Assembly: GCA_905235605.1 (NCBI GenBank)
Contig: CAJOMF010000020.1
Location: 1-32,580 of the forward strand
Origin: an uncultured bacterium
GTDB taxonomy: Bacteria; UBP6; UBA1177
Length of the DNA: 32,580 bases
Direction of reading: 5' to 3'
Part shown: piece by piece, positions 3,321 to 29,247 of the stretch
Layout of the letters: the number at the start of each line of letters is the position of its first letter
How positions within the stretch are numbered: position 1 is the stretch's first letter
Position numbers and translations under genes: made by a program
Notes under the pieces: model-generated
The model's input: only the letters and a program-made list of their open reading frames with translations
What the model was told of the DNA's origin: nothing
Database searches by the model: none

Positions 3321-4057
3321 AAAAAGAAATTCTGCCTGCAAACAAGTTCGAAAAAATCTACCGCTTCGGCGAAGTGACTTCGACGATGGATGTCTGCGAA
3401 GATTTAATAAAATCAGGTGTTCGTAAAGGAATGGTCCTTGCAGAGTCGCAGACTGCAGGGCGCGGCAGGAATGCAAAAAAATGGGTGTCGGAAGCCAACG
3501 GGAACATCTATCTTTCTTTTTTTGACAAGCTCGATACCGATTTTATACCTCAGAGATGCGCTGTAGCCGCTTCTTCTGCAGTTTCGCAGTTCGTTGAAAA
3601 AGCCGGAACCGTGCAGATAAAGTGGCCCAACGATATTCTGATAAATCAGAGAAAAGTGTCGGGAATCATTGCAAAAACTTTTGATTCTGGCGGCAAAAGG
3701 TTTTATATCTGCGGGATCGGCGTGAATGTTTTCATGCCGGAAGACCCTGAAAACAATTTTGTCTGGAAACCTGCCGCAGTTTCGGAATTTGCCGAAGTTT
3801 CAGGCGAAGAAGTTCTGAAAATACTTGTCAAAGCGGTCAATTCCGCATTTTCTTTTGCTCAAAGCAGTCTGATTTTGGACGTGTATGCTGAAAAAACAAG
3901 CTGGATGATCGGGAAAAACATAGTATTTTCGCAGGATTTGGTAAGAAAAGAAACGGGCAGGATCGTCGGATTTTCGGACGATTTTTCGGTTGTTGAAATT
4001 GAGACAGGGAACGGAACCGAAGAGCTTTCGGCTCTCTCGATTTTATCAATAATTTAA
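3317..4057 (+). CDS. birA: Biotin--[acetyl-CoA-carboxylase] ligase
   Basis: This 246-residue protein activates biotin with ATP and attaches it to the biotin carboxyl carrier domain. Visible motifs are STMD near residue 22, the biotinyl-AMP loop GRGRNAKKW at 48-56, NIYLSF, and the block IKWPNDI..KVSGII with the catalytic lysine region, followed by ICGIGVNV. A short C-terminal beta domain follows. The N-terminal DNA-binding helix-turn-helix of E. coli BirA is absent. This is therefore a catalysis-only (group I) ligase that cannot itself repress biotin genes. The start ATG overlaps the lipoprotein stop as ATGA. The pairing with a secreted nuclease-like lipoprotein looks like operon packing and not a shared pathway. 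Confidence 0.92.
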   Translation: MKKEILPANKFEKIYRFGEVTSTMDVCEDLIKSGVRKGMVLAESQTAGRGRNAKKWVSEANGNIYLSFFDKLDTDFIPQRCAVAASSAVSQFVEKAGTVQIKWPNDILINQRKVSGIIAKTFDSGGKRFYICGIGVNVFMPEDPENNFVWKPAAVSEFAEVSGEEVLKILVKAVNSAFSFAQSSLILDVYAEKTSWMIGKNIVFSQDLVRKETGRIVGFSDDFSVVEIETGNGTEELSALSILSII

Positions 4058-4072
4058 AGTGGTTGAATATTT

Positions 4073-6211
4073 ATGAAAAATTTAAAGTCAATTGTAAGAA
4101 ACCAAGCTTTCATGGCATTTGCCGTAATCTTTCTGGCATTGATGCTGAATCTGATTCCTTCAAAAACCGCCCTTGCACTGAAACTACCGGTCTTTCTCGA
4201 CTGTATCGGAACTGTAGCTGTGGCAATGCTCGGCGGGAATCTTCCTGCGGTTATTGTCGGTTTCTGCGTGAACGCGCTCAACGGAATATCCGACATGGCC
4301 ACGTTTTATTACGGTGTGATCAGCATTCTGATAGGCTGCATGGCTGCGATTTTCCAGAGAAACGGCTTCTTCAAACACATCGGCGGCATAATTGTGACAA
4401 TTCTTGTTTTTGCCGTTCTGGGCGGAGGTCTTGGTTCGGTGCTCACATATTTTCTTTACGGATACGATTTCGGTGAGGGGATTTCGGCACCGTTTTCTCT
4501 TGCGATTTACGAATATCTCGGTTTTTCCAAATTCGCGTCGCAGCTTTTGGCAGACATCATCATCGATATCCTGGATAAAACTATCGTTGTTGTATGTTCG
4601 ATCTTCATTTTTCGTCTGATTCCTGAAGATTGGAAGGAAAAGGCACACCGGCTTTTCCTGTTTTTCCCTGATTTAGACGGAGAATACAGGAAACTTCTGC
4701 TTCGAAACCATATAAAACGCTCTCTTATTAAAAAAGTTGTTGTTATGGTCATTGTTGCCGAGATACTTTTGGGAACTTTGGCGACAGCTACCGGATTTGT
4801 CCTTTACAGGGAAGTTGCGCTGAGCAAGTTTACCGATATAGCCAACGGCGTAACAAAAGCAGCCGCAGTTGTGATCGATTCCGAGCGGCTTGACGAGTTC
4901 CTTGAAAAAGGGCGGAAGGCGGAAGGATACTCCGATATTGAAAAAAATCTTTACAAAATAAAGGAGAGTTTTCCGCAAACGATGTATCTTTATGTATATA
5001 AAATTGTGGAAGACGGCTGCCATGTCGTTTTTGATCTCGATTCCGAAGGCGGTGCCGAGGCGAGCCAGCCAGGTGAAGTTGTAGAGTTTGATCCGACTTT
5101 TGTGCCGTATCTGCCGAAACTCTTCAAAGGAGAAGAGATCGAACCGATAATTTCTGACGACCAGTACGGGGCTCTTCTCACGGTTTACAAACCGCTCAAA
5201 GGTTCGACCTATGTCGCAGCGGACATTACGATAGGCAGTATTGCCGCAGACGAAGCGAAATTTGTAATTAAACTCATCTCGGTTTTTTTCGGGCTTTCGA
5301 TCATCATCATGAGCATTATTCTCGAGTTCGTAAACCGCGGGATCGTCTATCCGGTCAACCGCATGGCGATGGCTTCAATGCAGTTCGTGTCCAATCTGGA
5401 GCAGGGCGGGAATTCGGGGCTTGCCGCTCTTCAAGCCATCAACATCAGGACTTTTGACGAAATCGAAAACCTGTACAAATCGATTGTGAAAATGGGCGGT
5501 GACTCGTTGGAGTTCATTGCGCAGATGAACCGGCAGAATGAGCGCATAACGAAAATGCAGGAAGAGATCATCGTCAACTTTGCTGAAATGGTCGAAGCGC
5601 GTGACATAAGCACAGGCAACCACGTCAAAAAAACAGCGGAGTATGTCGAGGCGATAGCGAAAGAACTGCAAAAAGAAGGAAAGTTCACAGATATTCTCAC
5701 TGATTCCTACATCAAAGTTCTGAAGCGTTCGGCTCCTCTCCACGACATCGGAAAAATCGCGATTTCCGATCTGATTTTGAACAAGCCAGGCAGATTCACC
5801 GACGAGGAGTTCAAAATCATGCAGAGCCATGCGGCCGAAGGAAAGAAGATTCTGACCAAAATTGAAACCAATGCAAGCGATATGGATGAAGGTTACCTGA
5901 AAGAGTCGATCGAAATGGCTCACTATCACCATGAAAAGTGGGATGGAACGGGTTATCCCACAAAAATCAAAGGAGAAGAGATTCCGCTCTCAGCGAGGAT
6001 CATGGCTGTTGCCGATGTTTTTGACGCCCTGGTAGCTGAACGTGTCTACAAAAAGTCATTCCCCTATGAAAAGGCGATGTCGATAATCATGGAAGGTTCG
6101 GGTAAGGCTTTCGATCCGGATATTGTCGAGGCATTCTCGCACATATCACAAAGACTCTACGACGAGCGCACCAAACTCGAGAAAGAAGAAAATAATTGTT
6201 CCGATGCTTAA
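4073..6211 (+). CDS. Membrane sensor HD-GYP domain phosphodiesterase
   Basis: This 712-residue multi-domain protein has several parts in order. About six hydrophobic helices in residues 1-185 include LDCIGTVAVAMLGG and resemble the ECF-transporter S-component-like sensor regions of signalling proteins. A further helix lies near 222-245. An extracytoplasmic Cache-like domain follows at about 250-400 (MYLYVYKI, YVAADITIG), then a helix (ISVFFGLSIIIMSIILEF) and a short linker. A C-terminal HD-GYP domain carries His557-Asp558 in HDIGK, a YHHEKWDG block and GYP at 627-629. HD-GYP enzymes hydrolyse cyclic di-GMP. The complete motif set suggests activity is retained. The N-terminal ligand is unknown. 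The downstream receiver overlaps its stop, so the pair probably forms one signalling unit. Confidence 0.88.
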   Translation: MKNLKSIVRNQAFMAFAVIFLALMLNLIPSKTALALKLPVFLDCIGTVAVAMLGGNLPAVIVGFCVNALNGISDMATFYYGVISILIGCMAAIFQRNGFFKHIGGIIVTILVFAVLGGGLGSVLTYFLYGYDFGEGISAPFSLAIYEYLGFSKFASQLLADIIIDILDKTIVVVCSIFIFRLIPEDWKEKAHRLFLFFPDLDGEYRKLLLRNHIKRSLIKKVVVMVIVAEILLGTLATATGFVLYREVALSKFTDIANGVTKAAAVVIDSERLDEFLEKGRKAEGYSDIEKNLYKIKESFPQTMYLYVYKIVEDGCHVVFDLDSEGGAEASQPGEVVEFDPTFVPYLPKLFKGEEIEPIISDDQYGALLTVYKPLKGSTYVAADITIGSIAADEAKFVIKLISVFFGLSIIIMSIILEFVNRGIVYPVNRMAMASMQFVSNLEQGGNSGLAALQAINIRTFDEIENLYKSIVKMGGDSLEFIAQMNRQNERITKMQEEIIVNFAEMVEARDISTGNHVKKTAEYVEAIAKELQKEGKFTDILTDSYIKVLKRSAPLHDIGKIAISDLILNKPGRFTDEEFKIMQSHAAEGKKILTKIETNASDMDEGYLKESIEMAHYHHEKWDGTGYPTKIKGEEIPLSARIMAVADVFDALVAERVYKKSFPYEKAMSIIMEGSGKAFDPDIVEAFSHISQRLYDERTKLEKEENNCSDA

Positions 6212-7577: not shown

Positions 7578-8786
7578 ATGAAAATTTTTGTTCTCAACTG
7601 CGGAAGTTCTTCAATCAAGTACCAGCTTTTCGACATGACTGACGAGACGGTCATCGCGAAAGGTCTTGCCGAGAAAATCGGAAATCCGGAAGGTCACATC
7701 GAACTTAAGATCACGAACCCGAAAAACAAGATCGAAGTCAATCTTCCTCTTGCTGACCATTCGGTCGCTCTGAACAAAATCATGGATATGATGACCGAAA
7801 ACGGCGTTATCAAAGACAAATCCGAGATCACGGCGATCGCTCACAGACTCGTTCATGCAGGCGAATACTACCACGGCAGCGTTGAAGTTACGGACGATGT
7901 AGTTTTCAGGATCCAGGAATGCAACGACCTCGCACCGCTTCACATTCCGGCTAACATCATCGGTATCAGAACCTGTCAGAAACTTTTCCCTGACACCTTC
8001 ATGTCGGGAACTTTCGACACCGCTTTCCATCACACGATGCCGGATTACGCTTACATGTATCCGATCGACTACAAATATTACGAAAAATACAGAGTCCGCA
8101 GATACGGATTCCACGGATCGAGCCACTTCTTCGTTTCGAACAGAGCCGCTGAAATGCTCGGCAAAGACATCAAAGACCTCAAGATCGTTACATGCCACCT
8201 CGGCAACGGCTGCTCGATGGCTGCAGTAGACGGCGGAAAATCGATCGACACCACGATGGGTATGACTCCGCTTGAAGGCGTAATGATGGGAACCCGTTCG
8301 GGCGATGTTGACCCGGGCGTTATCTTCTTCCTTGCAGACAAAGAGGGCGGACATCAGGCAGTTAATAAAATGTTCAACAAAAACAGCGGCTTGTTCGGCG
8401 TAAGCGGGATTTCCAACGATATGCGCGATATCCGCAAGGCTCGTGACGAGGGCAACAAACGTGCTGCTCTTGCACTTGCAATGTTCACCTACAGGATCAA
8501 GAAGTACATCGCTTCCTACGCTGCAGCTATGGGCGGAGTCGATGTAGTCATCTTCACCGGCGGAATAGGCGAGAACGTAGGCGAGATCCGCGAAAGATCG
8601 GTCGAAGGCCTTGAATTCATGGGCATCAAGATGAATAAAGAGCTCAACAACACGATCTGCGGAAGCGAAGCTGTTGTCAGCACCGACGACTCCAAGGTCA
8701 AAGTCATGGTCATTCCGACAAACGAAGAGCTCGTTCTTGCAAGGGATTCCAAGAAACTTTACGAAGAAAAGTTCGGCAAGAAATAA
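7578..8786 (+). CDS. ackA: Acetate kinase
   Basis: This 402-residue enzyme interconverts acetyl phosphate + ADP and acetate + ATP, giving substrate-level ATP in fermentation. It starts with the family signature VLNCGSSSIKYQLF (Asn7, Ser10/12 region). It continues with AHRLVHAGE, GTFDTAFHHTMP (catalytic Asp), RRYGFHGSSH, HLGNGCSMAAV, TRSGDVDPG and the ATP-binding FTGGIGENVGEIRE. Length and motif order are complete. Codon use is even and C-rich at third positions compared with the accessory genes, suggesting high expression. Phosphotransacetylase is not adjacent, so the partner must lie elsewhere. AGGAGG just before the ATG and its own promoter make it a single-gene unit; no strong terminator is visible downstream. 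Confidence 0.97.
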   Translation: MKIFVLNCGSSSIKYQLFDMTDETVIAKGLAEKIGNPEGHIELKITNPKNKIEVNLPLADHSVALNKIMDMMTENGVIKDKSEITAIAHRLVHAGEYYHGSVEVTDDVVFRIQECNDLAPLHIPANIIGIRTCQKLFPDTFMSGTFDTAFHHTMPDYAYMYPIDYKYYEKYRVRRYGFHGSSHFFVSNRAAEMLGKDIKDLKIVTCHLGNGCSMAAVDGGKSIDTTMGMTPLEGVMMGTRSGDVDPGVIFFLADKEGGHQAVNKMFNKNSGLFGVSGISNDMRDIRKARDEGNKRAALALAMFTYRIKKYIASYAAAMGGVDVVIFTGGIGENVGEIRERSVEGLEFMGIKMNKELNNTICGSEAVVSTDDSKVKVMVIPTNEELVLARDSKKLYEEKFGKK

Positions 8787-8884: not shown

Positions 8885-8912
8885 TTGACAGCAATTCGGT
8901 TTCTTGTACAAT
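8885..8912 (+). promoter_or_regulatory. Promoter of the 8945-11136 operon
   Basis: TTGACA at 8885-8890 and TACAAT at 8907-8912 are separated by 16 nt, followed by ATTCCGTTATTTTGG and then AGAGG before the ATG at 8945. The near-consensus hexamers make this one of the clearest promoters in the window. Confidence 0.8.
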
Positions 8913-8944
8913 ATTCCGTTATTTTGGAAAAAGAGGTGTTTTCA

Positions 8945-9502
8945 ATGAGTAAAAGTAAAATAATTATTATTTTAACGGTAATAGTTTTTATTGGTATTAT
9001 TGTCTTTTTAATAAGAAAAACACCTGATGACAAAATTTTTGAATCAAAAAAGGAAAACAATATCAAGGCAGAACAGATAGAAAAGGAAAAACAAATTTCC
9101 GGTATAAAAAAAGCTTTGAAAAGATCATTAAAACCTCTTGATTCCGAGAAAATTTTCAATGATCAGACAGGTTTGGAACCGCTTCCTTTTGATGAAGTTG
9201 AAAAACTTGAAGGGGAGGCTTTGCAAAAAAGATATGAAGAATTGGATGTTAAACTTGATTTTGCGATTAATAAAAACCCCGATTTGCCGCCAATTCCAGA
9301 ATGGTATACCAGAGAACGAGATTATGTTGAGAATAAGTTTTTTGCCACGGTAGGAAAAAGCAGATATAAAACCGAGCTTACTGAAGAACAGAAACAAAGA
9401 CAAGAGAAATACTTTGATTATCTTGAAGAAATTAAAAAATCGGGGCACGAAATAAGTGACGAGGAACAGGCAAAAACAAAAGAACAAATTTTGGGAGAGT
9501 AA
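8945..9502 (+). CDS. Single-pass membrane protein of unknown function
   Basis: The start is ATG 8945 with AGAGG about 8 nt upstream; the longer frame back to 8882 crosses the promoter. The product is 185 residues. Residues 5-23 (KIIIILTVIVFIGIIVFLI) form one membrane helix followed by Arg-Lys, so the remainder probably lies outside the cytoplasm. That remainder is highly charged and helical, rich in Lys and Glu, with possible coiled coil at about 38-65 and again at 130-185. A Pro/Trp-containing patch (DLPPIPEWYTRERDY) sits near residue 120. I recognise no family. It is the first gene of an A/T-rich operon with the two genes downstream; only 3 nt separate its stop from the next ATG. Confidence 0.7.
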   Translation: MSKSKIIIILTVIVFIGIIVFLIRKTPDDKIFESKKENNIKAEQIEKEKQISGIKKALKRSLKPLDSEKIFNDQTGLEPLPFDEVEKLEGEALQKRYEELDVKLDFAINKNPDLPPIPEWYTRERDYVENKFFATVGKSRYKTELTEEQKQRQEKYFDYLEEIKKSGHEISDEEQAKTKEQILGE

Positions 9503-9505
9503 GCC

Positions 9506-10132
9506 ATGAAAAAACTTCTGATTTTATGTGCATTTTTCATGCCGTTTTTTGTATCGGCGGCAAACACTCCAGTAGTCGAGGATTTTCCTAATTCCAGCAG
9601 AATTTACAGAAGACAGTTTAGTTTGACACTTAACCCAAGTAATACCGACTGTTAAGAGGGACTTGTCTGTGAAACCGGAATTTGTCGTTCCCCAAAACAA
9701 TCCTGTAGAGATGCAGGCAGTGGTGCCCAGCCAACATGCGATTGCACATTCGATGAATGGGCTATTCTAGATCTGACTTCCGGTGGAAATATGGTAAGAT
9801 CAGCTTTTACATCAGCCGGAATTATTTCAGCAAATGGATCTCCAAATGATCCATTCTTTGGTTTGGAAGGATATGTGGTTGCTCTGAATTTGGAAGATTT
9901 GATGACTTCCGGAGAGAAATATACAAAACTAAATAAATTAAATATGACAGAAAAAGAGAAAGAGCTTTCGGTAGATGAAAAGTTCTACACAAAAGAAAAT
10001 CGGAAAATCTATAATGATGCTTACAAGGATTATTTTAGGAAAAAAGGCTACAAAGAAAACGAAGATTTTTTTGTTACAGATGATAAAGTTTTCTTGATAA
10101 ACGATGAAAAACAAATGGAGAATTTACAATGA
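9506..10132 (+). pseudogene. Secreted Cys-rich protein interrupted by one in-frame TAA
   Basis: ATG 9506 opens a frame with a signal peptide (MKKLLILCAFFMPFFVSAA) and runs 49 codons to TAA at 9653-9655. The same frame then continues with no further stop to TGA at 10130-10132, through a Cys-rich stretch (EGLVCETGICR, then QPTCDCTFDEWA) and a charged tail with ENRKIYNDAYKDYF. Read through, it is a 207-residue exported protein. The cysteine motif spans the stop (NTDC before it, EGLVC after it), which argues that both halves belong together. The middle gene of the operon is therefore either freshly inactivated, misread in sequencing, or recoded. It is 3 nt after the membrane protein and overlaps the lipoprotein as ATGA. 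No known family was recognised. Confidence 0.65.
9791..10132 (+). CDS. Downstream open part of the interrupted secreted protein
   Basis: This 113-residue frame is what remains if translation restarts at the first ATG after the TAA at 9653. It lacks a signal peptide and has no convincing ribosome site (the upstream bases are CCGGTGGAAAT). It is best regarded as the C-terminal portion of the 9506-10132 reading frame and not as a separate gene. The sequence is soluble and charged, with NMTEKEKELSVDEKFY and KENEDFFVTDDKVF. Its stop overlaps the next start. Confidence 0.3.
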   Translation: MVRSAFTSAGIISANGSPNDPFFGLEGYVVALNLEDLMTSGEKYTKLNKLNMTEKEKELSVDEKFYTKENRKIYNDAYKDYFRKKGYKENEDFFVTDDKVFLINDEKQMENLQ

Positions 10133-11136
10133 TGAAGTATTTTAAGTCTTTTATTTTTGTGTTTGCTGTTTTTGCTTTTATCAGTTGCGGAAACAACAGT
10201 AAAGAAGGAACAAATGAAACAAAAATAAACCCATCGGATACCGTTTCAGAAAAAGAAAAAAATCAGGATTTAGCTGACAATGAAGAAGAAATTTACGATA
10301 ATGAACAAAAAGATTCGGATAACGACAGCAAAACAGAAATCAAAGAAGGTTGCATAAGTTTTTCAGGCAATTATTACGGGCTCGGCGGAGAAGGATGCAG
10401 TTATACGGTAAACGGCGGAGAGCAACACAGAGAGCCATCTCTTTCTCACGAATGCAAACCGGATTGCGGCGATTATGATTATGTCGGCAACTGTTATGTC
10501 AGTTTCAAAGTTAAGGAGATTGATCAGGCGTCGGACAGTGTCATGATCAAAGGAAGTTGTCTTGATAAAGATGGCAGTGAAACTGATAAAGAGGCAATTT
10601 TGAGTTATCCGAAATACAGCACTGATCCACAGATTTCGGAAACGCTCGTCGGCGTAGAAATCCGCAGTTTATCCATTTCATATCCGACCGGTCAGTTCTA
10701 TGCGCTGAAAACTAGTCGGGAAGAAGTTTTTTATATTGCCAACGAAGGACTTTGGGATTGGGAAATCGTGCAGAATTTTATACCTAATCTCAAAGCGGAA
10801 CAGAAAATCATTCCAACCTGCGAAAGTGTCTGCCTGATGTCTCCTTTTTACAATAACGGAAAGGCTTGCAACTACGAGCCGTGTGATGAAGAACCTTATT
10901 ACGATTACGTATATTTCCCGCCGATTGAATTCATTTTGGAAGATAAAGAACCTGTTCTAGTAAACATGGGTGATGTTGTTGAATCGGAAGGTTGCGAATA
11001 TTATGTTTTCTCAAGCAGGACTGTTGCGCCAGAAGATCCAGATCAGGAATTTTATTCAAATCCTGATGCTGAAATGCCTGCCGGAATAAGTAGAGAAATG
11101 CAATTCTACATTTTCAACATAAACGCTTTGAAATGA
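10129..11136 (+). CDS. Lipoprotein with acidic linker and Cys-rich domain, unknown function
   Basis: Two adjacent ATG codons (10129, 10132) precede a lipoprotein signal peptide (YFKSFIFVFAVFAFISC), with lipidated Cys at about residue 20. An acidic, Asn/Asp/Glu-rich linker runs to about residue 75. The exported domain that follows begins EGCISFSGNYYGLGGEGC. It contains about ten cysteines in all, many in pairs (KPDCGDYDYVGNC, PTCESVCLM, KACNYEPC), so several disulfides are likely. The tail has VNMGDVVESEGCEYYVF. I do not recognise the domain. The ATGA overlap with the gene before it and the shared export signals suggest a surface or periplasmic assembly made by the three genes. The A/T-rich codon use differs from the flanking ackA and pyrE, hinting at acquisition. 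Confidence 0.75.
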   Translation: MMKYFKSFIFVFAVFAFISCGNNSKEGTNETKINPSDTVSEKEKNQDLADNEEEIYDNEQKDSDNDSKTEIKEGCISFSGNYYGLGGEGCSYTVNGGEQHREPSLSHECKPDCGDYDYVGNCYVSFKVKEIDQASDSVMIKGSCLDKDGSETDKEAILSYPKYSTDPQISETLVGVEIRSLSISYPTGQFYALKTSREEVFYIANEGLWDWEIVQNFIPNLKAEQKIIPTCESVCLMSPFYNNGKACNYEPCDEEPYYDYVYFPPIEFILEDKEPVLVNMGDVVESEGCEYYVFSSRTVAPEDPDQEFYSNPDAEMPAGISREMQFYIFNINALK

Positions 11137-11140
11137 GTAA

Positions 11141-11180
11141 AGAGAAAGCAAATCCGACGGCTGTTCTATGCTGTTTCTCT
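11141..11180 (+). terminator. Hairpin after the unknown lipoprotein operon, possible weak terminator
   Basis: AGAGAAA at 11141-11147 pairs with TTTCTCT at 11174-11180, extended by GCA/TGC with a small bulge. The loop is long and there is only a short mixed A/T tail, so termination would be weak. Confidence 0.3.
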
Positions 11181-11210
11181 AAATTCTTTGATTTAAAACC
11201 CTCAGACTTC

Positions 11211-11268: not shown

Positions 11269-11307
11269 ATGAATTACAGATTGAATGTCAGAGGTCATAA
11301 TGAATAA
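11269..11307 (+). CDS. 12-residue leader ORF overlapping the pyrE start
   Basis: GGAGG at 11259-11263 lies 5 nt before ATG 11269. That ATG reads MNYRLNVRGHNE and stops at TAA 11305-11307, inside the beginning of pyrE. The strongest ribosome site of this mRNA therefore serves this tiny ORF and not pyrE. A short leader peptide that overlaps a pyrimidine gene suggests translational coupling or translation-dependent control. In E. coli, pyrE is controlled by coupling of transcription and translation upstream, although with a different layout. No attenuator hairpin is obvious between them. The ORF could also be a chance reading frame, so confidence is moderate. Confidence 0.45.
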   Translation: MNYRLNVRGHNE

Positions 11308-11974
11308 CTACAAACACGATTTCATAGATTTTATGGTCGAATGTGAAGTCCTCACTTTCGGTGATTTCGTCACCAAAAGCGGCAGAAAGACTCCGTTTTT
11401 CGTAAACACCGGCAAATACAGAACGGGTGAGCAGATTTCAAAACTCGGCGGGTTTTACGCCGAATCGATCATGGAAAACACGAAAGGGGAGTTCGACGTC
11501 CTTTTCGGGCCGGCCTACAAAGGGATTCCGCTTGCAGTTTCCACCGCTATCGCGCTTAACGCAAAATACGGCAAAAACGTCGCTTTCTGCTTCAACAGAA
11601 AAGAGGTGAAAGACCACGGCGAGGGCGGGACCCTCATCGGCCACAAACTCCAGAAAGGAGACAGAGTCCTCATAATCGAAGATGTCACCACTGCCGGGAC
11701 CAGCATCCGTGAGACGGTTCCGCTCCTCAAGGCGGCGGCGGATATCGAACTTGCGGCTCTTTCAGTCTCGGTCAACAGAATGGAGCGCGGAACGGGCGAG
11801 AAGAGCGCACTCGACGAGATCAGGGACGATTTCGGAATGAAAACTTTCTCCATCGTCACAATGGCCGAAGTCGTTGAATATCTCTACGGCAGAAAAGTCG
11901 GCGGCAAAGTCCTCATTGACGATGAAATGAAATCGAGGATCGAAGACTACTACAAAATCTACGGCGCAAAGTAA
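11300..11974 (+). CDS. pyrE: Orotate phosphoribosyltransferase
   Basis: ATG 11300 gives MNNYKHDFIDFM, the usual start of this family, with AGAGGT at 11290-11295. An in-frame ATG at 11285 would add five residues and has no better ribosome site. The 224-residue enzyme joins orotate to PRPP to make OMP in pyrimidine synthesis. It has the orotate-binding KSGRKTPFFVNTG near residue 26, FGPAYKGIPLA near 69, the flexible loop FNRKEVKDHGEGG near 98-110, and the PRPP motif VLIIEDVTTAGTS with Glu127-Asp128. The sequence is complete. A leader ORF overlaps its start, and the oxidoreductase ATG directly follows its stop. Confidence 0.95.
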   Translation: MNNYKHDFIDFMVECEVLTFGDFVTKSGRKTPFFVNTGKYRTGEQISKLGGFYAESIMENTKGEFDVLFGPAYKGIPLAVSTAIALNAKYGKNVAFCFNRKEVKDHGEGGTLIGHKLQKGDRVLIIEDVTTAGTSIRETVPLLKAAADIELAALSVSVNRMERGTGEKSALDEIRDDFGMKTFSIVTMAEVVEYLYGRKVGGKVLIDDEMKSRIEDYYKIYGAK

Positions 11975-19769: not shown

Positions 19770-22700
19770 TTACAGGAAATAGCGGCTTATGAAATCCTCG
19801 GTTTTCGGATTGTTCTTTGTTTCTTCAATATCCGGATCGAGGTAAAACGCGTGCCAGAGCGAGGCTGCGCCTAATTTTTCAAGATACGATTTTATTTCGG
19901 CAAGTCCGGTATTTTCAAGGAATCTCACGAGTTCAAGCGCTCTGTTCTGGAATGTCGGACGGATGCCTCTTGCAAATTTTATTTTCTCTTTTACGGCTCC
20001 TTGAAGCGTTGTTAAGATTTTTTCCGCTGTTTCTGGTGAAGTGTTGTCAAGCCCGCAGGAAAGAAGGAACGATTCTTTAAGGGTCATGAATTTCAGTTTT
20101 TCAAAGTCGGTTTTTAATGACTCCGGACCGAAAATGATAGATGGAACCTGTGAAATAACTGCTGCTTTGCAGGGGATTGTACTTTCTTCATCCCACAAGC
20201 CTTCAAGCTCGTCGAAATTGCATGAAAGTTTAATGTATTCAATAAGCTGAGTTAAAATTCTGTGATTGTTTGTGTGCAGCGGTTTTGCCTTGATTTTTGT
20301 TTTGTTGGGTATTGAAGAGATAATTTGGACAAATTCCCTTAAATATCCATCTTTGTCAGAGAAGCCTGCAAATTCAAATAATTTCTCTTTTTCAAGAGCG
20401 AAAGAGTTGGGAAAGTGTTCTATCGGTTTTTCATCGTTTCCGCCAATGAAATCAAGTGCTCTTTTTAGGAAAAGAGCGAACTGTTTTTTATTCCGGTTTA
20501 ATTCTGCCAGGCGGCTCAAAGGATACGGATCCTTTTTGGCGACGGCTTCAAACAGTATTGACTTGAGGAGTTCGTTTTCTTTTTCCGTGTCGTTTTTTCC
20601 TTTTGCCGAAAGGGAAAGCAGCACCTGTTTTTTCAGATTTTCCGTAATGAAAACATTTGTCGCCTTTTCTGCCGCATCAAAGTTTTCTTCAGCTATGTAT
20701 TCACGGATCTTTTCTTCTGTTCTTGCTCTTTCCTGCGGAGAATCTGCAAAAAATTCAGCAGCTTCTTCCATGTTTCCTGTTTCAGTCAGAATTTCGAAAA
20801 GCATTTCTTTCAGTCTCTCTTTCCAGGTTTCGTCTGTTTCCGCCGAAAGTTCTGTTTTTATGATTTCAAGCGCGGAATCGTTGTCACCTGATTCTTTTAC
20901 AATAGAAACATATCGTTTAAAAGAGGTAATATTCCTATTCATGCTGAACAGCTCTTTTGCGATTTTCCCGGCATTTTTCCAGTTTTTTTCAGCGGTGTAA
21001 ATGTTAAGGAGTTTTTCGCCTGAATCGATTTCTTTTTCTTTATTCCATTTTTTTTCATATATTGGAATCAGAATCGAATTTGCACCGATTTCATAAAGAG
21101 TGGATTCATAAATTTTTAAAAAATCATTCAGATTTTCATAATCTGTAGAATTGATACGGTTCCTGTATAAATGCATAAGTTTGTCCGGAGATATATTTTC
21201 TCCAGTCAAAGAAATCGTTTCATCGATGAAGCGGCACTTTTCTTTGCTGTTTTCAATTTTCTGCAAAGTTATGTTCCTGACGAAAAGCAGGGTGTTGAAG
21301 TCTTTGTTTTTGATATATATATGTTCAAGAATATCTCTTGCAATATTGTAAGTTTCCGTGTCTTCAGCGGTTGTAAGCAGCTCTTCAAGATCATCCTGAA
21401 GTGTCGGATTTTCGCATCCTTTAAAGAATAATAACCAGATTTTCCGCTTGTTTTTCGGTTCGAATTTCAGATAGTAGTCCAATATAATCGAAATTCCTTC
21501 AAAAAATCCTGCTTTTATATATTCGCCGACTAAGAACATCAAAGCTGTATGTCTGGTAGAATTTTTAACTAAAATGTCGATTGAAAAATCTTTTTTAAAA
21601 AGAGAGAGAACAAATTTCTCTTTGTCGCCGTAAGGCGTTTCTGATTTTTCGAAAGATCCTTCTTTGTATAAAAAGTAAAGTTCTTTCCAGAATGACGGTT
21701 CTTCGTGTTTAAGTATCTCATCTGTCATTAAAGATGAATTATTCTGTTTTATATACTCTATGAACAATCCGAAATCGTAATCGTTATAATCTACAAGTTT
21801 TGTTTCAATGTTGGCAAAGTCGGCCTTTCCCTCCGACATCCTCAAATTTTCTTTTGCGGTTATATTTTCAGGGTAGAGTTTTAGTATTTCTGAAAATATT
21901 TCGTTTGCTTTTTTTGTTTTTCCGGTTTCGCGCATTATCATAGCCGACTTCATAAGATAGGAAAGTCCTGTTCTGGATTTTGCTGTTTGGTTAAGGTCTG
22001 TAATCTGAGAAATTACAAGATTTGTTCCGGCGTCGTCTTTTGTGTTAGCAAAAATCTTTTCGAGATAAAGCAGGGACGGCAGATGTTCCGGTTTTATTTC
22101 CAGAAGTTCTCTGAAGCACTCGGCTGCACGGGTAAGGTCCCTGATATTTTCATAAAATATGACGCCGTTTTTGTAGTAAAGGTTGGCGATTTCCGCCAGA
22201 TCCTTTGAAATATCGATCTCTTTGAAGTTGATTTCGGTGAGTTTTTCCCAGTTTTTTTCTGCGCTGTAGATACGTCCCAGTTTTTTTACGGCTTCAAGAT
22301 TTTTCGGATCGATTTCAAGTATTTGGATAAGATATTTTTCAGATTCACCGATTTCCTCTTTATATACGGTTTTATAGTCGGCCAGCTTTTTTAAGATCCT
22401 TATTTTATCCTCTTTTTCTGATGCGTTTTCGAGTTCGGAGAGCAGTATTTCACGGCACCGTGAATAATTTTTTGTTCCGATACAGAGTCCGGCAAGCATC
22501 CTTGCTGTTTCAAAGGAATATTTTGCCGTCAGACTTTTTTCAAAATATTCAACGGCTTTTTCCGGGTTGTGCAGTCTGCTCAGGAAAATTTCTCCGGTTT
22601 TTGAAAAAAATGCTGCTTGGAAAACAGGATCGGTCTCTCTTTCGGCGATTGCCTGATAGAGCGAAGCCAGTTTTTCCCATGATCCGTTTTCTTCGTATAT

Positions 22701-23738
22701 CGCGGCAGCCTTTGAAAGCGAAAACGTACAGCTGACAGGATCTTCTTCAGCGATGTTTCTGTATATTTCGGCAGCGAAATCAGGGAGTTCCAGCTTATTT
22801 TCATAGATGTCTGCGAGAAGCTCCAGATACATCGTCTTTTCCGCGCCGACCGCCTTTTTTGAAGATAGTTTGTAAAATTTACCGACGAGATGCCACTTTT
22901 TATACTTGTAGAGGATCGGAGCTATGATGTTTAAAATGAAGACAGAATCGGTGTTTTCGGCAAGCGCGGAAACTGTTTCCTCGAGTTTGTCTTCGATGTT
23001 ATTTTTATAGTAGTAGCAGAATTCGACGAATTTTACCGTCGTGAACGAGACTTTTAGCGAGCTTTCGGTAACTTTTTTTGTGAATGCGGCGATATTTTCG
23101 GGCGAAATGCCGCTGTACTGCATGATGTAGAATTTTAAAATTTCGAAAATGAACGGGTGAAGGTCGGATTTTTCGAAAACTCTGAGCATGAGAGTAAAGG
23201 CCTTGCCGTAATCTCCGGCTTTTTCGGCTTTGACCGCTTCAAAAAACGAGGCGCAGAGCGATTCAAACGAACAGTTGTCGCCTGTTTCATGCGGAGATTT
23301 GTCGTAAAAAGAAAGAACAAGGCCGGTGACCGGATCGGATTCTGTCAGATTTTTCTTTATTTCATCTATCAGCTCTTCATTCGCGAATCCTGTCTTTATC
23401 AGTAAAAATATCATTAAATTCAAATAGTTTTCTTTGCTTATCGAAGAAGATGCGCTTTTGAGTTTTTCAAAAAGTCCGTATTCGGAAGGATTGGAAAGGA
23501 GCAGAGTGAAAAAAAGTTCGAGTTCGTCGTTTCCGGTGAGCGTCTTCAGAGCTTCTTCCGCCGGCATCGAAGTTAAAGCCGCGGGAAAGAAATTTTCCGG
23601 AAAATGCCCCGACAAAGTTTCGAGAGGCTTGAAACTACCGCATTTTTCCTCGATTTCTTCGCTTTTCGGCAGGATGTGCCTGAAATTCAACCGCACGTTT
23701 TCAAGAGTCGAATCGTTTGCAATTACGATTTTTTCCAT
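19770..23738 (-). CDS. Giant TPR-like helical repeat protein (1322 residues)
   Basis: The minus-strand ATG at 23738 has GGAGGG about 5 nt upstream. There is no signal peptide or membrane segment, so the protein is probably cytoplasmic. Most of it is alpha-helical with TPR-like units. The clearest lie at about 370-650, for example NPEKAVEYFEKSL, IGESEKYLIQILEIDPKNLEAVKKLGRIY, LTRAAECFRELLEIKPEHLPSLLYLEKI and KANEIFSEILKLYPENITAKENL. Outer parts are more degenerate helical hairpins. No enzymatic domain was recognised. Such solenoids usually organise multiprotein complexes. It has its own promoter and only an 84-nt gap to rlmB, and it diverges from the RND exporter. The middle of the gene is noticeably more A/T-rich than its 5' end. 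The partner and process are unknown. Confidence 0.85.
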   Translation of the reverse strand: MEKIVIANDSTLENVRLNFRHILPKSEEIEEKCGSFKPLETLSGHFPENFFPAALTSMPAEEALKTLTGNDELELFFTLLLSNPSEYGLFEKLKSASSSISKENYLNLMIFLLIKTGFANEELIDEIKKNLTESDPVTGLVLSFYDKSPHETGDNCSFESLCASFFEAVKAEKAGDYGKAFTLMLRVFEKSDLHPFIFEILKFYIMQYSGISPENIAAFTKKVTESSLKVSFTTVKFVEFCYYYKNNIEDKLEETVSALAENTDSVFILNIIAPILYKYKKWHLVGKFYKLSSKKAVGAEKTMYLELLADIYENKLELPDFAAEIYRNIAEEDPVSCTFSLSKAAAIYEENGSWEKLASLYQAIAERETDPVFQAAFFSKTGEIFLSRLHNPEKAVEYFEKSLTAKYSFETARMLAGLCIGTKNYSRCREILLSELENASEKEDKIRILKKLADYKTVYKEEIGESEKYLIQILEIDPKNLEAVKKLGRIYSAEKNWEKLTEINFKEIDISKDLAEIANLYYKNGVIFYENIRDLTRAAECFRELLEIKPEHLPSLLYLEKIFANTKDDAGTNLVISQITDLNQTAKSRTGLSYLMKSAMIMRETGKTKKANEIFSEILKLYPENITAKENLRMSEGKADFANIETKLVDYNDYDFGLFIEYIKQNNSSLMTDEILKHEEPSFWKELYFLYKEGSFEKSETPYGDKEKFVLSLFKKDFSIDILVKNSTRHTALMFLVGEYIKAGFFEGISIILDYYLKFEPKNKRKIWLLFFKGCENPTLQDDLEELLTTAEDTETYNIARDILEHIYIKNKDFNTLLFVRNITLQKIENSKEKCRFIDETISLTGENISPDKLMHLYRNRINSTDYENLNDFLKIYESTLYEIGANSILIPIYEKKWNKEKEIDSGEKLLNIYTAEKNWKNAGKIAKELFSMNRNITSFKRYVSIVKESGDNDSALEIIKTELSAETDETWKERLKEMLFEILTETGNMEEAAEFFADSPQERARTEEKIREYIAEENFDAAEKATNVFITENLKKQVLLSLSAKGKNDTEKENELLKSILFEAVAKKDPYPLSRLAELNRNKKQFALFLKRALDFIGGNDEKPIEHFPNSFALEKEKLFEFAGFSDKDGYLREFVQIISSIPNKTKIKAKPLHTNNHRILTQLIEYIKLSCNFDELEGLWDEESTIPCKAAVISQVPSIIFGPESLKTDFEKLKFMTLKESFLLSCGLDNTSPETAEKILTTLQGAVKEKIKFARGIRPTFQNRALELVRFLENTGLAEIKSYLEKLGAASLWHAFYLDPDIEETKNNPKTEDFISRYFL

Positions 23739-28441: not shown

Positions 28442-28470
28442 TTGACAAATACTTTTTTAGATACTAAAAT
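28442..28470 (+). promoter_or_regulatory. Second, downstream promoter of the Phd/PIN operon
   Basis: TTGACA at 28442-28447 and TAAAAT at 28465-28470 are 17 nt apart, an almost perfect pair placed just ahead of the antitoxin. AGATAC at 28459-28464 and GTATCT at 28485-28490 form an inverted repeat flanking the expected start point, a candidate site for autoregulation by the antitoxin. Confidence 0.6.
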
Positions 28471-28504
28471 AAATACTGAAAAACGTATCTTTTTGGAGGC
28501 TAAA

Positions 28505-28831
28505 ATGATCGCGTTAAGAGCAGTCGATGTGAAAACTAATTTTAAAGATGTCTGTGCCAAGGCTTTTGACGGTGAAGTTATTCTTATTTCCCGCCCGAAA
28601 AATCAGAATGTAGTCCTGCTTTCTGAAGCTGAATACAACGAACTCAGCAAATCCGCATACCTTGCAAAAACGGTCTCAAAAACTCTTAAAGAACTTCGCG
28701 CCATGGAGTACATGTCTAAAGAAGAAACGATGGATTTGTTTGAAAAATTCAAGGGAAGTTTGCAGGTTCCCGCCGGTTTTGATGCCAGAAAAGAATTCCT
28801 CGAATATCTCGATGAGAGGTATGGAGTATGA
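28505..28831 (+). CDS. Phd/YefM-type antitoxin
   Basis: ATG 28505 has GGAGG 5 nt upstream and gives 108 residues starting MIALRAVDVKTNFKDVCAKAF. A TTG at 28442 also has a GGAGG, but it lies in a promoter -35 box and its extra 21 residues look unrelated to the family. The N-terminal half has the Phd/YefM pattern, with VKTNF (in place of the usual AR..F), EVILISRPKNQNVVLLSEAEYNEL, and then a helix. The C-terminal half, from about residue 60, would wrap and neutralise the toxin. Phd-type proteins bind operators as dimers and repress their own operon. The stop overlaps the PIN gene as ATGA, the usual toxin-antitoxin coupling. Confidence 0.85.
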   Translation: MIALRAVDVKTNFKDVCAKAFDGEVILISRPKNQNVVLLSEAEYNELSKSAYLAKTVSKTLKELRAMEYMSKEETMDLFEKFKGSLQVPAGFDARKEFLEYLDERYGV

Positions 28832-29247
28832 AAAACCTCTTTTTTGACACGAATATTCTTCTCAATTACCTGATTCCCGCAAATCCATTTCACGAGAAAG
28901 CCTCCTTGCTCGTGAAAGAGTGGCTTCTTGGAAATTTGCATGGCTTTATTTCGGCACATTCTCTGACAGATATTTTTTACATAACGAGAAAATTTTTTTC
29001 TGTTGAAGATAGGAGAGACTTCCTGCTTCTTATTGTTTCCAACTTCCAAGTAATCGCGGAAGAACAGGACGATTTTCTGGCAGTGTTGAATGATCCGGCT
29101 TTCTTTGATCTCGAAGACGGCCTGCAGATGAAATGCGCTGAAAATGCTGCTCTCGATTATATCGTCACAGAAAATCTTAAGGATTTCAAAAACTCGAAAG
29201 TTCCGGCAGTCAGTATCGACGAAACTCTGAAAAAATTATCGCACTAA
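28828..29247 (+). CDS. PIN-domain toxin (VapC-like ribonuclease)
   Basis: This 139-residue protein begins KNLFFDTNILLNYL with the first acidic residue, Asp7. It continues with SLTDIFY (Asp48), FFDLEDGLQMKCA (Asp94/Asp97) and LDYIVTENLKDF (Asp110, Glu115). That is the PIN order of acidic residues that bind Mg2+ or Mn2+ for RNA cleavage. PIN toxins in this size class cut tRNA or rRNA and halt growth when the antitoxin is lost. It overlaps the antitoxin by 4 nt. The acidic set looks complete, so it is probably active. Confidence 0.87.
   Translation: MKNLFFDTNILLNYLIPANPFHEKASLLVKEWLLGNLHGFISAHSLTDIFYITRKFFSVEDRRDFLLLIVSNFQVIAEEQDDFLAVLNDPAFFDLEDGLQMKCAENAALDYIVTENLKDFKNSKVPAVSIDETLKKLSH

Follow-up and report, generated by a model that had tools for sequence, protein, structure and literature searches.

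The reading frame that starts at ATG 9506 of the window (the whole 32,580-nucleotide stretch of DNA analysed here, from an uncultured bacterium) is very probably a chimeric pseudogene of a secreted metalloprotease, located in a patchy, recombining cassette. Here, the two halves of the frame, which are separated by an in-frame TAA, correspond to the first ~41 and the last ~165 codons of a gene for a protease of ~690 residues. Relative to its intact orthologues, the gene has lost ~496 codons and carries the premature stop, and this is ordinary gene decay and not a tolerated stop. At most, the frame can give a 49-residue secreted peptide; the protease tail is, as far as can be told, untranslated, and removal of the stop would not restore the protease.

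Translation of positions 9506–10135 gives MKKLLILCAFFMPFFVSAANTPVVEDFPNSSRIYRRQFSLTLNPSNTDC, followed by the TAA at 9653–9655 and then EGLVCETGICRSPKQSC... The frame opens with a typical signal peptide, and cysteines flank the stop on both sides. Past the TAA, it stays open for 158 codons up to the TGA at 10130–10132, which overlaps the ATG of the downstream gene at 10129 (ATGA), and the remaining two forward frames contain 12 stops each over the same length. Apart from the stops in the other frames, these features had been described in an earlier, sequence-only reading of the locus, and translation bears them out. The probability of an open run of 158 codons is ~1.2e-5 under a first-order Markov model of the same composition, and 0 of 20,000 simulated sequences were open over that length. 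As such a run is improbable by chance, the frame is real, inherited coding sequence, and this includes its second half.

The identity of the gene came from its relatives, which were searched in 14 genomes of the genus and in genomes further out in the phylum. When used as a query, the second half retrieved far longer frames, with full-length proteins of 690–709 aa in G014 (693 aa), G015, G016 (two copies) and G019. The intact relatives combine a signal peptide and a PPC-like domain with the HExxH motif, a further His after it, the turn S(V/I)MNY and, in addition, a Cys segment and a C-terminal region. In G014 numbering, H464, E465, H468 and H474 do not vary among six relatives. The zinc motif HExxHxxGxxH is present in the intact proteins; its Gly-containing form is exact in G013, G016b and G015, the Gly is varied in G014 and G019, and G016a has an insertion. 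The Met-turn that follows is kept in all six.

Profile matches to these proteins are weak. In Pfam, PPC/reprolysin-like matches are found in the full-length relatives, with the catalytic domain scoring 23.6 bits to Reprolysin_5 (below the cut-off of 27) and 20.3 bits to M66 (below the cut-off of 20.6). A profile compared by sequence to the PDB gave only weak myroilysin/ADAMTS-like matches, the best being myroilysin (E = 0.037), and a single-protein sequence query against the PDB gave none. The structure model of the protease (pLDDT 38) was too poor for use, and no publication on this family turned up in a literature search. From their motif pattern, the intact relatives are likely to be secreted metzincin-like metalloproteases, and the protease lost here was presumably active.

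Breakage of this gene is also seen elsewhere in the genus, where 2 of 3 protease carriers (the window and G013) have a broken copy. In G013, the gene (L009:3403–3789 and 3708–5450) is broken near codon 81 by the loss of one base, unless this is a sequencing error. Separately, the protease genes of G013 and G014 (L009:3403–5450 versus L010:3330–5411) alternate in DNA identity, block by block, between ~96% and 50–70%, which suggests mosaic recombination.

The protease gene belongs to an accessory cassette between ackA and pyrE, made up of a 185-aa gene, the ~690-residue secreted metzincin-like metalloprotease and a partner gene (Table 1). The same cassette occupies the same site in G014, and in G009 pyrE comes directly after ackA, that is, the site is empty and the cassette absent. 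The cassette (window 8900–11140) has 36–38% G+C versus 43–49% in most of its neighbours, as would suit an accessory segment that was imported. The 185-aa gene is 84% identical to the gene just 5' of the intact protease in G014 and 77% identical to that in G013, and its homologue adjoins the protease in G015, G016 and G019 too; its pN/pS is well below 1. At the DNA level, most of the lipoprotein-like gene is 88% identical to the G007 gene located elsewhere. Neither of these genes, nor either half of the interrupted frame, had a significant match in Pfam or NCBIfam.

Table 1. Features of the cassette and its flanks in the window
Feature	Coordinates	Strand	Comment
ackA, acetate kinase (flank)	7578..8786	+	PF00871, E = 6e-152; ends in TAA; syntenic in G014 and G009
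185-aa first cassette gene, intact	8945..9502	+	N-terminal hydrophobic segment; no Pfam family
Protease start remnant (signal peptide and first 41 codons)	9506..9628	+	88% identical to residues 1–43 of the G014 protease; base-by-base match ends at ~9627
Junction, end of homology to the resident-type (G014) protease	9627..9629	+	~496 codons missing here
In-frame TAA	9653..9655	+	In the protease-tail part, 8 codons past the junction; aligned residue in G016a is Ala
Protease tail remnant (Cys cluster and C-terminal region, 158 codons)	9656..10132	+	Identity to the tails of G013 74%, G016a 59%, G014 44%
Lipoprotein-like gene, intact, 335 aa	10129..11136	+	78% identical to a G007 gene at a different site
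Third-gene remnant, last 13 codons and stop	11138..11182	+	Cys-rich third gene of G014/G013; reads stop, RESKSDGCSMLFL, stop
pyrE-like phosphoribosyltransferase (flank)	11285..11974	+	PF00156, E = 1e-12

The third, Cys-rich gene of G014 is a member of a family with multiple copies in the genus (L010:5519–6439, L063, L066–L074 and G000:C13, C14 and C19). Its members share a near-identical end (...EESKSDGCSMLFI), and fragments comprising only this tail are scattered over several genomes. A subtilase-like protein of G007 (L058) ends in a similar sequence, GGGCSLLTID. The near-identical tails may serve as a sorting signal at the C-terminus or may mark a hot spot of recombination. Elsewhere, the window contains a gene pair for a Phd/YefM-type antitoxin and a PIN-domain protein (28442–29247) and, on the minus strand in a low G+C stretch, the gene for a 1322-aa TPR-repeat protein (19770–23738).

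The sequence-only reading had taken the frame for one protein split by a single TAA, and this picture of an otherwise intact protein with one lesion does not hold: the frame is the fused ends of the protease gene and the body is gone. In the window, the motif SPKQSC is at residue 62, and the matching motif is at residue 558/559 in the intact G016a and G014 proteins; therefore, ~496 codons (496–497) are missing. When the 693-aa protein was used to search the whole genome to which the window belongs (G000), only residues 1–43 and 557–690 were present, both at this locus. The catalytic domain with its HExxH is absent from the window gene and from the rest of the assembly, which is 96% complete. 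An alignment of homologues across the stop, which the same reading had recommended, is informative for G016a alone: the Cys insertion of the tail is common to the window and this protein only, and an Ala aligns with the stop. Homologues that end naturally at residue 49 would have spoken against a broken gene and none was found, the full-length proteins reaching 690–709 aa.

The edges of the altered segment are sharp. At this site and in both flanks, the window and G014 are ~93–94% identical; this identity extends up to 9627, ~25 bases 5' of the TAA, and is found again from 11139, a position inside the final codons of the downstream Cys-rich gene of G014. Within the block, only short, weakly matching pieces are shared. 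The catalytic body is absent, homology breaks at 9627 and 11139, and a remnant of the partner gene lies at the second edge. Compared to G013, pS is 0.73 for the tail and 0.27 for the upstream 185-aa gene, so that parts of the locus differ in history (the G016b row was left out of the pN/pS comparison, as a neighbouring kinase gene had been picked).

In the explanation that we prefer, a block spanning 9628–11138, which derived from a divergent protease copy and carried its tail and the lipoprotein gene, would have replaced the body of the resident protease. The same block would have removed nearly all of the former partner gene, leaving 13 codons. The resident signal-peptide start and the donor tail would then share a frame by chance, with the TAA eight codons past the joint and the enzyme lost; the relative timing of rearrangement and stop is one that we infer. 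We lean towards a single block replacement having made both edges, and the lipoprotein gene apparently arrived together with the tail. As no close relative with a full-length, donor-type protease was found in the 14 genomes of the genus or the further genomes of the phylum, replacement in a single event is no more than moderately probable.

A less probable course of events is a simple internal deletion of ~1.5 kb in the resident protease, plus a separate stop, with the lipoprotein gene arriving by another route. It agrees with the length difference of 496–497 codons and with the usual gene order, since related lipoproteins come after the protease in G015 and G016 and the tail and lipoprotein gene could therefore be ancestral. 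However, extra events are needed to explain both the third-gene remnant and the unequal divergence of start and tail. Replacement followed by internal deletion fits as well as block replacement. It is doubtful, although conceivable, that the protease tail and partner gene would form a swappable module exchanged between strains behind a conserved start, similar to tip/immunity exchange. Recombination would then take place in the near-identical 3' tails that the Cys-rich partner genes share, and the window would be a failed swap.

An error of assembly or base calling, with the gene intact in the population, is improbable. The genome is probably a metagenome assembly, judging from its 136 contigs and from relatives whose titles name rumen and gut isolates, and relatives carry probable indel errors. 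One of these is in the ackA of G014 (L010:1404–2611), a conserved housekeeping gene that is split by a frameshift; this is probably an assembly error. In the window, however, the junction links two places of the gene that do not correspond, no long repeat was found nearby, what is left of the third gene at the opposite edge points independently to rearrangement, and the missing body is nowhere in the 96% complete assembly.

A tolerated stop, a stop that undergoes readthrough, or a tail translated alone as a separate protein is very improbable, even though the tail frame is open and its rate of change is not relaxed. A separate second gene, which the earlier reading had named as a finding that would overturn its own, would have no ATG, GTG or TTG for the first 45 codons past the stop, the first being ATG 9791. 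Readthrough had also been suggested; the RNA 3' of the stop folds no better than shuffled sequences (z = 0.22), no Rfam match was found near the stop, and the product would still be without the catalytic domain. In addition, TAA is an ordinary terminator here because it ends the conserved ackA in the window, G014 and G009. Across the window, repeats, promoters and terminators, RNA families and tRNAs include nothing that bears on the stop. With no start, repeat, structure or Rfam match and with TAA as a terminator, it is unlikely that the stop is read through or recoded, that it serves phase variation, or that the second half is a gene of its own. The phase-variable loss suggested earlier has next to no chance of being correct: only the presence of the stop favours it, and simple repeats are absent from both the stop and the joint, the body is missing, and G000 has no second full copy for switching.

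The chimeric pseudogene is probably young. The tail has no frameshift and keeps its frame over 158 codons. Synonymous sites in the tail are saturated, making dN/dS unusable, and a relative-rate count was used instead. This gave 7 versus 14 amino-acid changes for the window branch with G016a as the outgroup and 11 versus 8 with G014. Thus, relaxed constraint was not seen in the remaining tail, and as amino-acid changes are not in excess along the branch to the window, loss of the protease would probably be recent. Kept frame and rate fit either recent loss or some remaining constraint; a recent loss would be expected to look like this, and the pattern is compatible with a young pseudogene. The recent inactivation raised by the sequence-only reading is supported; that the frame is ~496 codons shorter than in its full-length relatives could not be seen from the sequence alone.

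An in-frame stop inside an open frame invites a reading of readthrough or phase variation, and the lesson here is one of caution, as relatives reveal how little of the gene is left. Recombination has also left its record at this locus, in a secreted protease cassette of gut bacteria about which little is known.

Three known systems offer comparison. Stop-codon recoding, which includes selenocysteine at TGA, pyrrolysine at TAG and suppressor readthrough, likewise presents an in-frame stop inside an open frame; the window differs in having TAA as the codon, in showing no recoding element, and in a protein that is otherwise not intact. The relatives resemble the secreted metzincin-type zinc metalloproteases (MEROPS clan MA(M); Pfam Reprolysin_5/Peptidase_M66-like) in their signal peptide, PPC-like domain, HExxH with following His, and SxMNY, although their matches to curated catalytic domains are all below cut-off; the window gene, which is without the entire catalytic domain, is a remnant and not a member. 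There is likeness, too, to bacterial pseudogenes formed by internal deletion or ectopic recombination, in which the start and tail keep their order around a missing body, the stop is premature and the neighbours are intact. The window differs from these in its in-frame joint and in a part that looks imported, making the pseudogene chimeric rather than purely eroded.
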